This document shows, piece by piece, positions 21,526 to 28,264 of a stretch of 64,000 bases of DNA. The DNA is taken from NCBI RefSeq assembly GCF_024449095.1, contig NZ_CP024628.1:744001-808000 (forward strand), given 5' to 3'. Below the pieces are notes generated by a model. It was not told the DNA's origin, ran no database searches, and saw nothing but the letters and a program-made list of their open reading frames with translations. The DNA comes from Vibrio coralliilyticus (lineage in GTDB: Bacteria; Pseudomonadota; Gammaproteobacteria; Enterobacterales; Vibrionaceae). The position numbers and the translations under genes are program-made. The first letter of the stretch is position 1; every line of letters begins with the position of its first letter.

Positions 21526-21554
21526 AGTACGCATTATGTCTACTTATGTTCAAT
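21526..21554 (+). repeat. Left dif-like XerC/XerD site (attL of the filamentous prophage)
   Basis: AGTACGCATTA (XerC-type arm), seven-base centre TGTCTAC, TTATGTTCAAT (XerD-type arm). Each arm differs from the right-hand dif at one base. A seven-base centre, as opposed to six, is what I recall for attP of VGJ-type filamentous phages. This supports integration by host XerC/XerD rather than a phage integrase. Confidence 0.72.
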
Positions 21555-21615
21555 GGTTTTCATGTTAAAACAATCAATAGGTTAATAAATTCTTTCGTTT
21601 TTGAGAGAGTAAATC

Positions 21616-21981
21616 ATGAAGTATCACGAAATGACAAAAAACTATATTTTTCGTGAGTTTGAATGCGGTTTATCAGTAGAGGATGCAGCGCATCTTTGTT
21701 TCAAAAGTGTGAGGACAATCAAGGGATGGGATAGGGGGAATTCCATTCCTCCAGAGTGTAAACGGTTGATGCGAATGAGTAGGGGCAGAGAACTAAGTTC
21801 ATGTGAAGACTGGAAAAACTTTGTAATGAGATATGATCGTTTAGAACTCCCAACTGGACAGTTGGTCACAGCACAGCAAGTGCTGATAGGCATTGCCCTA
21901 CTAGAGTTAGGTGCTTCGAACGACATAGGAGTTGCGCGAAAAATATTAAGAAATGCGCGAGTATTAAAACGTCTAATATAA
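21616..21981 (+). CDS. DUF3653-type phage regulatory protein
   Basis: A 121-residue protein. Residues about 15-60 (FECGLSVEDAAHLCFKSVRTIKGWDRG) look like a helix-turn-helix in which the second helix ends in the WDRG motif. The rest (PPECKRLMRMSRGRELS, then WKNFVMRYDRLELPTGQ) matches the DUF3653 proteins often seen in Vibrio filamentous phages. A regulatory role is inferred. It is the first gene inside the left att site and ends in a terminator shared with the convergent operon at 22009. Confidence 0.75.
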   Translation: MKYHEMTKNYIFREFECGLSVEDAAHLCFKSVRTIKGWDRGNSIPPECKRLMRMSRGRELSSCEDWKNFVMRYDRLELPTGQLVTAQQVLIGIALLELGASNDIGVARKILRNARVLKRLI

Positions 21982-22008: not shown

Positions 22009-22671
22009 TTATTTTTGATTCAGCTTTTCTATCTTGGCTAACCAAGAACTAAAATGTTTACATTGCCTACGAATTTCATCAAGACCAATATCATCGGCAA
22101 TTAACGGGCCATGAACGGTCTTCTTATAACTTGGCATTACTGAAAGTATACGCTTCGAAGGGGCAGTTTGTGGGCTATTGTTAATATGTTCTGGGCTAGC
22201 GAAAGAATCTTTTATGGCTATAAGCTTTTCTATCGCATCATCATTATCATCTAGCCAGTAACCAAAATGGGTTGGGTCACAAAAAAGATAAGCTTCATAT
22301 TCGTGTAATGTTAAGTTACCAATGAAGTTTGGCTGATCAATATCGTTTTCGAAGGCGGTTTCTAGGTGGTTAACCTTTTCAAATAGATCTCGTTTAGCTG
22401 TTAACTCTGGAGCACGTATTTCTGGAAAGTCAGTAGGCAAGGCATAAAAATCAATCAATGTAGTCACATAAGCATCATTGTCAGATTTACACAGCTTTTC
22501 AATTTGGTGTTTGATTTTACCATAACTTACAATACCTCCTTTATGGCCTCTGCTTGTTTGAGCCAGTATAGGTACAAAGAAGATATTCTGTAGAGCGAAG
22601 TGAGGGGCTAGAACATCTGTTACAAAAGTTTCTTCGGTTTGGCCCTCAACAAAAATCTTAACACGTATCAA
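22009..22671 (-). CDS. DUF4276 (TOPRIM-like) protein, ATPase partner
   Basis: A 220-residue protein. I place the start at the TTG at 22671, which overlaps the ATPase stop (TTGA), giving MIRVKIFVEGQTEETFV; an ATG 36 bases upstream is possible. The VEGQTEETF segment supplies the conserved Glu and TLIDFYALP the conserved Asp of a TOPRIM-like metal site. GNLTLHEYEAYLFCDP is typical of DUF4276. TOPRIM partners of OLD-type ATPases usually cut nucleic acid, so an effector nuclease is likely but not shown. Third gene of a coupled operon (RHH, ATPase, this). Confidence 0.82.
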   Translation of the reverse strand: MIRVKIFVEGQTEETFVTDVLAPHFALQNIFFVPILAQTSRGHKGGIVSYGKIKHQIEKLCKSDNDAYVTTLIDFYALPTDFPEIRAPELTAKRDLFEKVNHLETAFENDIDQPNFIGNLTLHEYEAYLFCDPTHFGYWLDDNDDAIEKLIAIKDSFASPEHINNSPQTAPSKRILSVMPSYKKTVHGPLIADDIGLDEIRRQCKHFSSWLAKIEKLNQK

Positions 22672-23759
22672 CGTTGTGGCCTCCCACCCAATAAGTTTTT
22701 CTTCCACATTTCACCTAGACTGTAATCTTGCAGCCATTCGTTGAGGTGCTCTTCTTCTAAGCGTTTGAAAGTAGATGCGCCGTCCACTCTATCAACAACT
22801 ATTAAATCTTCGATATCAAATTCGTTAACTAATTCAACAGATTGAGTTGATACTATCAACTGATGTTCATTGCTCGCAGCCGAAATTAAAGCAGCTAAAA
22901 CCGATATTGCGTATGGATGTAAGCCCAACTCTGGCTCATCTACAATAATCGCACTTGGCATAAACTCTTCAGGTTGCAATAGAACTGTAGCCAAACAGAT
23001 AAAGCGTAGCGTTCCGTCCGAAAGTTCGTTTGCTTTGAAAGGTATGTCTTGATCTTTTTCTGTCCATTCCAATTCAATAAAGTCTGAATTACTTGCTGTA
23101 GACCTTAGATAAAAATCACCAAAGAAAGGAGCCACCATTTGAATAGTTTTAACTATACGCTTGTAGTTGTTTTTATGGTTCTCTTTCAAACGGTAAAGAA
23201 ATGCGGCCAAGTTGGAGCCATCTTCACGTAAATATTCATTATCATTAATTCGGTGAACCTGCTTTACTTTTGCTGAATCACTTGTATCGTGAAAATGGTA
23301 AACTCTCCACATACGCATTATTGGAAGGGTATATTGTTTAACACCAGAACGGTGGTTATCCACCATAGATTCAAAGTGACCAGAATATACACCCATATCA
23401 CCAGCCATATTCCACCACAGAGATTCACGAGAAAACAACATTCTATTATCGCTGGTCGGCTCTAAATTAAATTTGTACCCGTTGTTTCCGAAATAAAACT
23501 CGCCTTTGATGTTATCAGATACTTTCCGACCAAAATGAAGAAGTGCATCTGGGCCACCTGATTTTCCCACCGTAAGTTGCAAACGATGCTCCAATATGGC
23601 CGGAATTAATTTTAAAAATCCAATGAAGTTTGATTTTCCCGCTCCATTTGCACCAATTAAAACATTCAAACAGCCCATTTTGATATCACAGTGCTTGATA
23701 GACTTGTAGTTTTCAATTAGCAAACGGCTTAGCTGGTCAGAGTTAGTTACTTCTTTCAT
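22668..23759 (-). CDS. AAA/ABC-type ATPase of a putative defence operon
   Basis: A 363-residue SMC/RecF-like ATPase (AAA_21 type). Walker A is GANGAGKSN near residue 38, the signature-like motif is LSDGTLRF, Walker B is AIIVDEPELGLHP, and the switch region is VSTQS. It ends in a conserved-looking SLGEMWKKNLLGGRP tail. It overlaps the upstream RHH gene by 4 bases (ATGA) and the downstream TOPRIM-like gene by 4. The pair resembles OLD, PARIS or Gabija-like ATPase plus TOPRIM defence modules, but I cannot assign it to a named system. Confidence 0.85.
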   Translation of the reverse strand: MKEVTNSDQLSRLLIENYKSIKHCDIKMGCLNVLIGANGAGKSNFIGFLKLIPAILEHRLQLTVGKSGGPDALLHFGRKVSDNIKGEFYFGNNGYKFNLEPTSDNRMLFSRESLWWNMAGDMGVYSGHFESMVDNHRSGVKQYTLPIMRMWRVYHFHDTSDSAKVKQVHRINDNEYLREDGSNLAAFLYRLKENHKNNYKRIVKTIQMVAPFFGDFYLRSTASNSDFIELEWTEKDQDIPFKANELSDGTLRFICLATVLLQPEEFMPSAIIVDEPELGLHPYAISVLAALISAASNEHQLIVSTQSVELVNEFDIEDLIVVDRVDGASTFKRLEEEHLNEWLQDYSLGEMWKKNLLGGRPQR

Positions 23760-25552: not shown

Positions 25553-26985
25553 TTATCCCTGCGGGGCTTTAAAGCGAGACTTAACGAGTCTGGCCGCCTC
25601 CCCAAGGATCCACATAGTGAAGTCATAGAAAAGTTTAATTTCAGGTGAGCCAGATTGAGAGCCACGTTCTATCGGCTCTCTCTGGACAGGTTTACAAAAG
25701 ACATTAAGACTGGCCGCTTGCTTAGTCAGTTTTAAGAAGCAGTCATCGTAGTGAACAAATTGAATGTCATTGGCGGTCAGGAACGAGTCATTGAGGTGGT
25801 ACGTGCCTAAAGGGGTAACCGCTTCCAGCGTAACAAAGAAATCAAACCCTTTATCGGTGTGCTTGGTCGCATGGCCTGTGTAGTAAAGCGATTGAATGTC
25901 ATACATGCCAAGCATATTGCGCAGCAGGTTTAAACGAGCATCTGGATCAACGGCACTAAGGTGAGTCGTATTGCTATCCCCACCATGAGATACATGAGAA
26001 TGCCCTTGAGCATCCGTTTCACTAGATGGATGAGTTTGTGGGGTATCGGAATTCGAAGCTTGAGTCGTTTGCGCTTGCGTATCTTCCTCAGAATAACGAT
26101 GAACCAAATCGGATATACCATAGATTAAATACCCCAAACCAAAAATGATAAGTAAGCAGACCGCCATGAATTTCGGACTACGGAATAGTGTGTTCATCTG
26201 ACCGGATGATTGCGCTTTTCCGGTCGTTGTGGACTTGTACAATAAGAACGCATCAAGCGGGATTTTTTGCGTGGTTAAGTTCGCGTGCGAGCCTTTAGGG
26301 ATAGAAGGGGTTGTGACCGTCTTGTCATGTCGAAGATGTATGGCTTGCGCTTAGCCCAGAAGTAACCATCACGGCCTTTGTGGAAGAAACATTCTTCAGC
26401 ACAGGCTTTGATACCGGAGTCAATTTGCTTCCAATCGGGAGAGAGGAGTTCAATATCCCAGTTGTAGTGACGATGACGCATGAACCCCTCGTTAAAAGTG
26501 AACGGATAAATAATCCGGCCTTGTTCGTCATACTCAGCGTGGCCGCAGTCATCAATGTCACACGGGTCTAACTCGTCCATGTTAACCGGCACATAGTGAG
26601 AGTTGAAAAAATCCTCATACCCCTCAGGTAAGAGAGGAAGGAATTCTTGAAGCGGTCTATACCGAATCTTTTTGATGTCAAAGCCCACTTTAGGCGAATA
26701 GATATCCTGGCACTCATCGATGACAATCAACGCCCCAAGCGGTGCCCAGCAAAAGAAGTATTGCCACAGCTCCAAACCACGCTCATTTTTGCTCGATATG
26801 CGGATCAATTTGGTGGTTGAAGGAAATTTGATATCAAGGCGTTTTTCCATGATATGAAGTGGTGCCATGCCTTGAATGTTCGTCACCACCACGCGACCCG
26901 CTTTCAATGCCTTCAAAACCGTAAAGTAAGCCACATAAGAAGATTTATACGCGCCATTGGCGCCCGTTCTGATACGTACAGCCAT
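25553..26985 (-). pseudogene. zot: zot (filamentous phage assembly ATPase, pI), frameshifted
   Basis: Two frames together make a full-length Zot of about 477 residues. The first (26985 to 26275) has Walker A TGANGAYKSSY, Walker B ALIVIDECQDIY, and stops early. The second (from about 26340 down to 25553) resumes with RHDKTVTTPSIPKG and QKIPLDAFLLYKSTTTGKAQ, a membrane helix (FMAVCLLIIFGLGYLIYGI) and a periplasmic C-terminal domain. One missing base near 26331-26334 explains the break. Zot/pI drives virion assembly at the inner membrane. A sequencing error cannot be excluded. Confidence 0.85.
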
Positions 26986-27335: not shown

Positions 27336-27776
27336 TCAACTTCCTAATTGACGTAGACCCACAATGACGGCCACATAGAAATCAGCGTACCAAAGCATGG
27401 CGCAATGGGATTTATCAGTCAGCAAGCTCTGTATTTCAAGAACATACATGGAAGAACAAAAACGTAATAAGGATTGGCAAATCAACCGGATATCATAGTC
27501 AGAGTTGTAAATGATTAAGGATTTACCGATAAGTAAAGGCTCAATTTGCTCCCAGACCATTTGAGAGTTTGTTGACTGGCGAACGTCATCGTTTGAGATC
27601 CCGTGAATAGCTTGTGCTTGCTCTGGGATTGGGTCGCATGGACGAACCAAGGAAGTGAACACCACATCACCAGAAACTGCGTCAATCAGTGAGATTTCAA
27701 CAATCTCAGCATCAGAATCAAGGCCAGTGGTTTCTGTGTCGAGAATGAGTGCGTTAGTGATATCGAGAGTTTTCAT
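27336..27776 (-). pseudogene. DEDD 3'-5' exonuclease fragment fused to a short hydrophobic tail
   Basis: A 146-residue product. The first ~132 residues are DnaQ-like: ExoI motif LILDTETTGLD, the HGISNDDV segment, and ExoII around IIYNSDYDIRLI. The expected ExoIII region (H-x-A-L-x-D) is missing. After CAMLWYADFY the sequence changes to VAVIVGLRQLGS and stops one base before the pVI-like gene. That end looks like the membrane anchor of a pIII protein, which normally occupies this place. I read it as a recombination joint between an exonuclease gene and the last codons of pIII. Without ExoIII it should be inactive. Confidence 0.65.
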
Positions 27777-27804
27777 TTGAATCCCTTAGTCCGAATACCG
27801 ATTT

Positions 27805-27858
27805 ATGGGGATTCTAGTTGCCATTAATGGGGATTGTAAATAGCGCAAAATCGGGATT
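27805..27858. promoter_or_regulatory. Three 9-base direct repeats, candidate repressor operators
   Basis: ATGGGGATT at 27805-27813 and 27827-27835, ATCGGGATT at 27850-27858: spacing 22 and 23 bases, about two DNA turns. They lie between the divergent repressor gene and the structural operon, where RstR-type repressors bind in related phages. Confidence 0.65.
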
Positions 27859-27893
27859 AAACAGCTAAGATAATGACAAACGGAGGTTTTGAT

Positions 27894-28262
27894 ATGTATG
27901 CAAATGAACTGTTAGATGCCTATAAAAAGGCGCAAAACTACCTACAAGACAAGCAAATAGCACACGATTTGAATATCGAGCCGAACAAAGTAAGTAAAAT
28001 GCGCAAAGGTATTCGCTATATCTCTGATGAAGAAGCGATTTTTCTTGCGGAAGGTGCAGGATTAGATCCTGAAATAGCATTATTAGGTTGTCACGCTGAT
28101 CGCAACGATAATCCCAACATCAAAGCGATGTGGGAAAGCATTGCAAAAAAGTTTAATGGGCATGGTTTGCAAGGAATATCAATGGCTTGCGGAGGTTTGA
28201 TATTGTGGATTGGCAGCCCTAACGAAGCCCTAGCTAAGTGCGCATTATTTACGTTATGTTAA
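27894..28262 (+). CDS. Phage repressor, DUF3693/RstR-like
   Basis: A 122-residue protein from the ATG at 27894 (GGAGG seven bases upstream). An N-terminal Cro/CI-like helix-turn-helix (YLQDKQIAHDLNIEPNKVSKMRKG) is followed by SDEEAIFLAEGAGLDPEIALL, typical of DUF3693 regulators in Vibrio filamentous phages. The C-terminus is hydrophobic (QGISMACGGLILWI). The last eight codons and the stop are supplied by the chromosomal dif site. It is divergent from the structural genes, with three repeated operator-like boxes between. Confidence 0.8.
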   Translation: MYANELLDAYKKAQNYLQDKQIAHDLNIEPNKVSKMRKGIRYISDEEAIFLAEGAGLDPEIALLGCHADRNDNPNIKAMWESIAKKFNGHGLQGISMACGGLILWIGSPNEALAKCALFTLC

Positions 28263-28264
28263 AT
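28237..28264 (+). repeat. dif site (XerC/XerD recombination site), right end of the prophage
   Basis: AGTGCGCATTA, centre TTTACG, TTATGTTAAAT. The two arms are identical to the canonical Vibrio dif arms as I know them, and the six-base centre is of normal length. This is the chromosome dimer resolution site, and it doubles as attR. It overlaps the end of the phage repressor gene. Confidence 0.9.

Follow-up and report, generated by a model that had tools for sequence, protein, structure and literature searches.

The window (the whole stretch of 64,000 nucleotides that was analysed) is part of contig C2 of a genome of 5.02 Mb in three contigs. It carries a filamentous-prophage-like element between attL (21526-21554) and dif (28237-28264), both of which are dif-type sites. 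The features of this element are as follows:

21526..21554, plus strand: attL, sequence AGTACGCATTATGTCTACTTATGTTCAAT, 11 + 7 + 11 bp (site pattern match)
21537..21656, plus strand: predicted 3' end of the repressor gene in the excised circle, 39 codons plus TGA (frame continuation)
21616..21981, plus strand: second gene, 121 aa, phrog_1668, distant relative of the VC1465 family (PHROG, NCBIfam NF040522)
22009-23759, minus strand: AAA ATPase and DUF4276 pair, candidate defence system HEC-01A/B (PADLOC E-values 8.6e-156 and 3.5e-87)
25553-26985, minus strand: Zot-like assembly gene in two frames (ORFs of 236 and 229 aa)
27336..27776, minus strand: first gene of the divergent operon, RNase_T/DnaQ-like exonuclease (PF00929, E-value 3.2e-12)
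27794..27858, no strand assigned: three operator-like 20-bp direct repeats, the second and third 75% and 70% identical to the first, at spacings of 22 and 23 bp
27894..28262, plus strand: HTH and DUF3693 repressor, prophage form, 122 aa (Pfam PF12472, phrog_638)
28237..28264, plus strand: dif, here attR, sequence AGTGCGCATTATTTACGTTATGTTAAAT (site pattern match)

The Element and Its Two XerCD Sites

Matches to the site pattern on contig C2 are limited to attL and dif, and two further matches lie on contig C1. The dif site consists of the XerC arm AGTGCGCATTA, the 6-bp centre TTTACG, and the XerD arm TTATGTTAAAT, and attL consists of the XerC arm AGTACGCATTA, the 7-bp centre TGTCTAC, and the XerD arm TTATGTTCAAT. 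According to the model of XerC exchange, the XerC arm of dif would belong to the phage side and its XerD arm to the host side, and for attL the XerC arm would be on the host side and the XerD arm on the phage side. The element fits the VGJ-type layout with a single attP, namely a 29-bp attP with a 7-bp centre and a 28-bp dif at the other end, and the structure of these junctions is consistent with integration and excision by XerC strand exchange. No match to a phage-encoded integrase family was obtained among the ten larger element ORFs, to which the test was confined, and none of the ten matched pII/RstA replication, ssDNA-binding, major coat or adsorption genes. Given these missing genes and the Zot-like gene in two frames, the element is unlikely to be an autonomous phage. 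The HEC-01A/B-like pair lies as cargo within this element, the one at dif2.

On C1 of the same genome, a fuller relative (L256, G000:C1:1624300-1637500) occupies the dif site, which we take to be dif1 by convention. In the position of its replication gene there is a 441-aa ORF with a weak relaxase match (E-value 9.1e-4), and a further ORF, of 422 aa, is assigned by position only to adsorption. Its Zot-like gene is a single frame of 453 aa, as against two frames in the window.

The repressor ORF starts at the ATG at 27894, another in-frame ATG being present at 27873. Its product scores 74.8 bits with PF12472, for which the curated Pfam cut-off is 21, and matches phrog_638 with an E-value of 9.7e-46; its C-terminal half is DUF3693. 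In the predicted structure of the 122-aa protein the N-terminus is helical, with block pLDDT values of 91-97 over residues 1-50, and the list of Foldseek matches is led by HTHs of the XRE/CI type (best E-value 0.18), which by the predicted model only would correspond to an HTH DNA-binding fold.

The 3' end of the ORF reads TGC GCA TTA TTT ACG TTA TGT TAA, and its stop codon (28260-28262) is supplied by the XerD arm of dif, read TTA TGT TAA. The final four residues, FTLC, and the stop are thus written by the centre and the XerD arm. A sequence-only reading of this DNA had attributed the last eight residues, KCALFTLC, and the TAA to dif. The site does encode C116-C122 and the stop, together with two of the three bases of K115, the first base of that codon (28236) falling outside it. 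The same reading had proposed that in the excised circle the frame would continue for about 39 codons to a TGA near 21656, giving some 157 residues, and computation reproduces these values. Read in the repressor frame from the left XerC arm, the tail CLLMFNGFHVKTINRLINSFVFERVNHEVSRNDKKLYFS comprises 39 codons (21537-21653, TGA at 21654-21656), so that the predicted circle form has 118 + 39 = 157 residues. The tail was further said to enter the start of a DUF3653 gene, and it does overlap the next gene, which starts at 21616, by 41 nt; that gene has no match to DUF3653 (PF12375). We regard this anatomy, in which the repressor gene is given a new end by integration, as practically certain.

Long and Short Forms of One Gene

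The same repressor gene, with the site inside it, is found in records of free-phage or plasmid forms. The extended product has 154 aa in VGJ, ND1-fs1, VFJ, and VCY, 148 aa in Vf33, Vaf1, and pO3K6, 160 aa in K04M1, 154 and 147 aa in two copies of K05K4, and 152 aa in VSK. Exceptions with an early stop within the gene are VEJ (98 aa), VSKK (78 and 113 aa), and a third copy in K05K4 (87 aa). The VGJ record annotates its functional attP inside orf154. The sequence-only reading would have been refuted by free relatives with attP away from the 3' end of the repressor gene; in the records compared, attP lies inside that end.

Long and short forms can be paired at the nucleotide level. The first 354 nt are identical between VGJ (154 aa) and L014 (122 aa), and between VCY and L040 (122 aa), the latter member of each pair being a viral contig that ends at the dif stop, in which integration is read from this ending and not from host flank. 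Further pairs of free and dif-ended genes are 99.7% (K05K4/L087 and pO3K6/L203), 99.4% (Vf33/L237), and 97.7% (Vaf1/L237) identical, and VFJ has no close dif-ended partner (best 82.8%). In tandem array L147, the inner junction carries an extended repressor of 154 aa and the outer end a dif-ended repressor of 122 aa; in array L165 the corresponding lengths are 157 and 125 aa. The inner and outer repressors are 67.5% and 58.5% identical over 118 codons in the two arrays and belong to different phages, and hence the arrays document two types of junction, not one phage in two states. For annotators, this is a warning: what is listed as a 122-aa repressor in a prophage and as ORF154 in a free phage can be two states of a single gene.

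The collected loci contain 138 unique repressor ORFs, of which 80 are truncated by dif, 11 are extended (147-160 aa), 15 have other endings, 14 run off a contig end, and 18 are 5'-incomplete. The dif-truncated forms are 122 aa long in 76 cases, 125 aa in three, and 118 aa in one. In whole genomes of Vibrio, the repressor was matched in 87 of 227 and the second gene in 93 of 227, at most the best 30 loci being read from each whole-genome search. The search for XerCD sites applied a score threshold, by which unlike sites are missed; it found a site for 153 of the 172 second-gene matches and none for 19, in several cases for want of upstream sequence, the gene standing at the start of its contig. 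Without duplicates, the 153 sites amount to 93 sequences; six of these were dropped and the other 87 retained, and for one locus (L076) the start of the second gene was set at a codon that is no start codon. The sequences place attP between codon 118 of the DUF3693 repressor and the second gene, termed Xaf-like below, in XerCD-dependent Vibrio inoviruses, and this layout recurs in many of these phages, including the types of fs1/VGJ and Vf33.

Some right ends depart from this pattern. In L031, L172, and L218 the repressor ends ...MSIPF* at a non-dif junction, and in L034, L183, and L192 it runs into ...W(N/S)YVEGL at a dif-like site, followed by TTATGTTGAGGG. Upstream of attL, pieces of repressor genes that lack the 5' part (74-81 codons long) or decayed remnants occur in L180, L185, L211, L212, L244, L252, and L253, and like remnants were seen by eye in L175, L178, and L183. 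We read such remnants as left over from successive integrations into one and the same dif.

The Reading Frame Beyond attP

From the XerC arm to the start of the next gene, the tail is open in the repressor frame at 84 of the 87 unique sites, the other two frames being open at two and none; the 87 sites are related, and these counts are not independent. Among 17 representatives less than 65% identical, the frame remains open beyond the XerD arm in 15, whereas 1000 shuffles gave a mean of 4.8 (sd 1.9) and never more than 11; of the other two frames, one is open in 3 and the other in 2 of the 17. The open tails comprise 29-42 codons, and all 84 end 4-58 nt inside the next gene. The spacing from the arm to the start of that gene is 67, 70, 79, or 85 nt, all equal to 1 modulo 3, in 81 of the 84 open sites; the 85-nt spacing may be one of 70 nt with a TTG start, and the independent spacing classes are therefore probably three. 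A phage-side frame that stopped within the XerC arm or the centre would have refuted the sequence-only reading, and it is not what the sites contain, with three closed tails in 87: those of L026 and L160 have TGA directly after the XerC arm, and that of L065 stops after 16 codons.

The centre of the phage site is 7 bp long in 87 of 87 cases, in a search that allowed 6-8 bp. It is thus one base longer than the 6-bp centre of dif, which shifts the frame off the stop in the XerD arm. With a 6-bp centre this arm would read as a stop in 43 of the 84 open tails, and so the additional base matters in about half of them.

How readily such tails would stay open by chance was evaluated by random mutation along trees. 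On trees built from the tail only, no tip acquired a stop in 226, 3, and 240 of 3000 runs for three spacing classes, all with an open reconstructed root, so that only one class is strong when taken alone; the reconstructed root of the 85-nt class contains stops, and its value of 76 in 3000 was not used. On trees that include the next gene, which may inflate the number of changes, 70, 0, 26, and 42 of 2000 runs were free of stops. Substitutions in the non-overlapping part of the tail, by codon position 1/2/3, number 20/14/16, 90/71/65, 20/24/27, and 33/33/25 in the four spacing classes, without a general excess at third positions. One subclass of three tails differs, with a distribution of 5/1/10 (10 of the 16 extra states at position 3); its synonymous share is 0.40 when read in the tail frame but 0.09 and 0 when read in the other two. 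In this subclass the residues themselves may matter, and a role of the peptide is possible. Overall, the data fit the idea that openness, and not a specific peptide, is mainly what is kept. By this statistical argument, openness without third-position excess is better explained by a frame that has to reach the next gene than by a peptide of fixed function.

One might also suppose that attP simply fell into the end of the gene, that the C-terminus past residue 118 is dispensable, and that both forms act alike. We consider such a neutral by-product rather improbable. It would account for the low-confidence structure past approximately residue 94 in both forms, the lack of a general codon-position signal, the three closed tails, and the divergence in sequence and length after ...PLYIMR in 11 of the 15 Xanthomonas relatives listed, as if the end were indifferent. 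It would not account for the avoidance of stops in the tail (shuffles leave 4.8 of the 17 representatives open, the actual sequences 15), the in-frame spacing at 81 of the 84 open sites, or the recurrence of an overlapping second gene in Vibrio and Xanthomonas phages and in SMA7.

Several candidate roles of the tail were set aside. The 84 open tails end in RND, YFS, RNE, CFS, HFS, and the like, and none is ssrA-like, which disfavors a degradation tag. A conserved peptide across all tails has no general codon-level signal, the three-tail subclass excepted. An additional membrane helix is inconsistent among the proteins listed, the 19-residue Kyte-Doolittle windows peaking at 2.16 in VCY and at about 0.9 in VGJ. 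As for a folded domain, the AlphaFold2 models of both forms have pLDDT values of less than 50 beyond approximately residue 94, and in the one long form modelled (P0079) the tail has pLDDT values below 50.

In the mycobacteriophage BPs, attP lies in the repressor ORF, whose product has 136 or 103 aa, and immunity is described as integration-dependent (PMC4557955). The BPs and Vibrio systems have in common that attP is inside the repressor ORF and that the prophage form is shorter by some 30 residues; they differ in that BPs encodes its integrase and has an ssrA-like tag on the long form. The BPs repressor is presumably unrelated to the Vibrio DUF3693 repressor. By analogy, and in line with the possible integration-dependent switch of the sequence-only reading, the 122-aa form might be active and stable and the long form unstable or inactive because of its tail, in which case only integration would confer immunity. 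The common geometry (136 vs. 103 aa), the presence of the HTH half in both forms, and the pLDDT values below 50 in the tail of P0079 would fit such a device. The degradation tag implied by the comparison with mycobacteriophages in the sequence-only reading is, however, absent: none of the 84 open tails has an ssrA-like end, and all of them end where they overlap the next gene. The tail has no general residue-level signal, the three-tail subclass differing in this respect, and in mean hydrophobicity its frame (0.46) does not exceed the +1 frame (1.02). We consider integration-dependent immunity of this kind unlikely.

The Downstream Xaf-Like Gene

The second gene of the window was assigned to phrog_1668, whose PHROG label, "tail assembly", is implausible for an inovirus. 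Its only NCBIfam match at E-values up to 0.01 is NF040522, the VC1465 family of Xer recombination activation factors, with an E-value of 1.9e-10 and 40.8 bits, short of the curated cut-off of 70 bits. NF040522 is also the best NCBIfam match in 10 of 10 relatives tested (phage records of Vibrio, Xanthomonas, and Stenotrophomonas and the dif1 prophage), with 21.0-48.7 bits, all below 70. At an E-value of 0.01 the model matches in 7 of 14 control genomes as well, in none of them above the cut-off, and the signal may in part be that of a generic HTH. Because of these sub-cut-off scores and control matches, "Xaf-like" is used here for a distant relative and not for a member of the family. With PF12375, ORF136 of VGJ (20.3 bits) and ORF11 of XacF1 (20.7 bits) score below the cut-off of 22.4.

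An overlapping second gene follows the repressor in VGJ, VFJ, VCY, ND1-fs1, Vaf1, pO3K6, K05K4, XacF1, and phiXv2, and also in SMA7, whose att was not located. As all 84 open tails enter this gene, integration also splits a pair formed by the repressor and the Xaf-like gene. A consensus scan found no promoter proper to the Xaf-like gene, which is weak evidence given 1.9 expected by chance; it may yet be transcribed from a promoter of its own or depend on transcription from the host. Open and closed tails are not distinguished by their Shine-Dalgarno-like scores.

In two PHROG families, 34897 (279 positions) and 25084 (250 positions), the repressor matches one end and the second gene the other, which suggests that natural fusions of the two proteins across attP may exist in some phages.

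Such fusions bear on the idea that the long form has an additional function in the free phage, be it ligand sensing, partner binding, or activation, which integration would remove. A function of this sort has been proposed for ORF13 of phiRSS0 (PMC3816273), and besides the putative fusions the synonymous excess in the one subclass of three tails speaks for it. On the other hand, the tail has no confident fold and no general third-position excess, and we judge an additional function to be very unlikely.

A Proposed Switch

Some kind of functional switch on integration is probable. The mechanism that we favor, at a likelihood that we place just short of even, combines truncation of the repressor with the loss of its coupling to the Xaf-like gene. 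Given the known XerC exchange, integration would carry the phage's own 3' end and the Xaf-like gene behind it to the opposite end of the prophage. The main task of the tail would be translational coupling, in that ribosomes translating the repressor are led on into the next gene. In the free circle, the long repressor and the Xer activator would be made together, and in the integrated state the short repressor would be produced, the Xaf-like gene being deprived of the operon promoter and of coupling. Repression and quiet Xer recombination would then be favored, and the prophage would stay stable until the operon is re-formed by excision.

If the Xaf-like relatives act like XafT, integration would disconnect a Xer activator from the promoter of the repressor. 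XafT activates XerD (PMC9765430), whereas integration of VGJ is driven by XerC (PMC4246890), and this difference counts against the part given to the Xaf-like gene in the coupling mechanism. More tentatively, with a likelihood nearer to a third than to a half, the position of attP between the repressor and the Xer activator might be such that recombination switches off its own activator and excision restores both genes, with dif, at which chromosome dimers are resolved, serving as the stop of the repressor and the 7-bp vs. 6-bp centre as a frame switch.

Phages that borrow XerCD have no integrase gene to regulate. If correct, the proposal would explain in a testable manner how such phages link recombination to the decision between the integrated and the free state, as recombination itself would change the repressor and unlink a possible Xer activator.

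Related XerCD-Dependent Inoviruses

The sequence-only reading knew of no comparable device in a filamentous phage that uses host XerCD, but the principle is already in print for phiRSS0 and XacF1. In phiRSS0 of Ralstonia solanacearum, attP is described as lying in ORF13, and integration creates a new stop by which the product is shortened from 156 to 130 aa; Yamada's review suggests that the two forms differ in function (PMC3816273). The Vibrio phages resemble phiRSS0 as an inovirus dependent on host XerCD, with a dif-type attP in a repressor-like HTH gene that becomes shorter after integration (PMC3816273, PMC4471427). Compared with the description of phiRSS0, they are set apart by a near-constant 122-aa ending provided by the XerD arm of dif, by the 7-bp centre acting as a frame shift, and by the downstream Xaf-like gene.

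ORF12 of XacF1, a Xanthomonas phage, is reported to contain attP and to be split on integration (PMC5666396, PMC4076744), and a 5' deletion of this ORF delayed integration and made the prophage unstable (PMC5666396). ORF12 belongs to the same family as the window repressor (PF12472, E-value 4.4e-14; phrog_638, E-value 4.9e-43). In XacF1, Cf1c, and phiXv2, the attP core is located at about codon 123 of ORF12, and in XacF1 and phiXv2 the next gene overlaps ORF12 by 4 nt, just as the second gene overlaps in Vibrio. XacF1 and phiXv2 are thus of the type found in Vibrio, with a DUF3693-family repressor, a dif-type attP near codon 120, and an overlapping second gene. In contrast to Vibrio, 11 of the 15 Xanthomonas relatives listed carry varied ends after ...PLYIMR and have no fixed short end; these ends would be coded by the host.

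ORF154 and ORF136 of VGJphi and their counterparts are direct relatives of the window genes. XafT (VC1465) of TLCphi is a distant relative of the Xaf-like gene and is likewise encoded by an element that exploits Xer; unlike XafT, the Xaf-like proteins fall below the NF040522 cut-off, and activation of Xer by them is putative. The literature searched, which includes few subscription papers, contains no description of the fixed 122-aa form in Vibrio, of the stop in the dif arm, or of the split between the repressor and ORF136 or the Xaf-like gene. What was not found in print, then, is the scale of the phenomenon, the logic of the frame, and the separation of the repressor/Xaf-like gene pair.

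Operator-Like Repeats and Possible Immunity Types

The DNA-binding HTH half is common to the long and short forms of the repressor. The operator-like repeats are situated between the repressor gene and the divergent phage operon, whose first gene, that of the RNase_T/DnaQ-like exonuclease, is the likely target of repression, as judged from position only. The core of the repeats is found at -89, -67, and -44 in the window and at the same three positions in L001, L002, and L081. Among the 20 upstream regions (the window included) whose repressors have an HTH half at least 80% identical, five contain at least two copies of the core, as compared with the core in none of 45 regions with an HTH half less than 70% identical, 50 intermediate regions being outside this tally. 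Two copies were reached in none of 20000 shuffles of the window's upstream region. The repeats overlap a promoter-like site on the minus strand (27840-27811), in a region where such sites are no commoner than expected by chance (2 found, 2.5 expected). The presence of at least two cores among phages with similar HTHs points to a possible code of immunity types.

The repressor of L256 is 53% identical to that of the window, with a similar C-terminal end and a different HTH half, which suggests that domains may be swapped between immunity types. Upstream of the repressor in L004, L005, L059, and L064, a different core was seen by eye at a similar spacing of about 22 bp.
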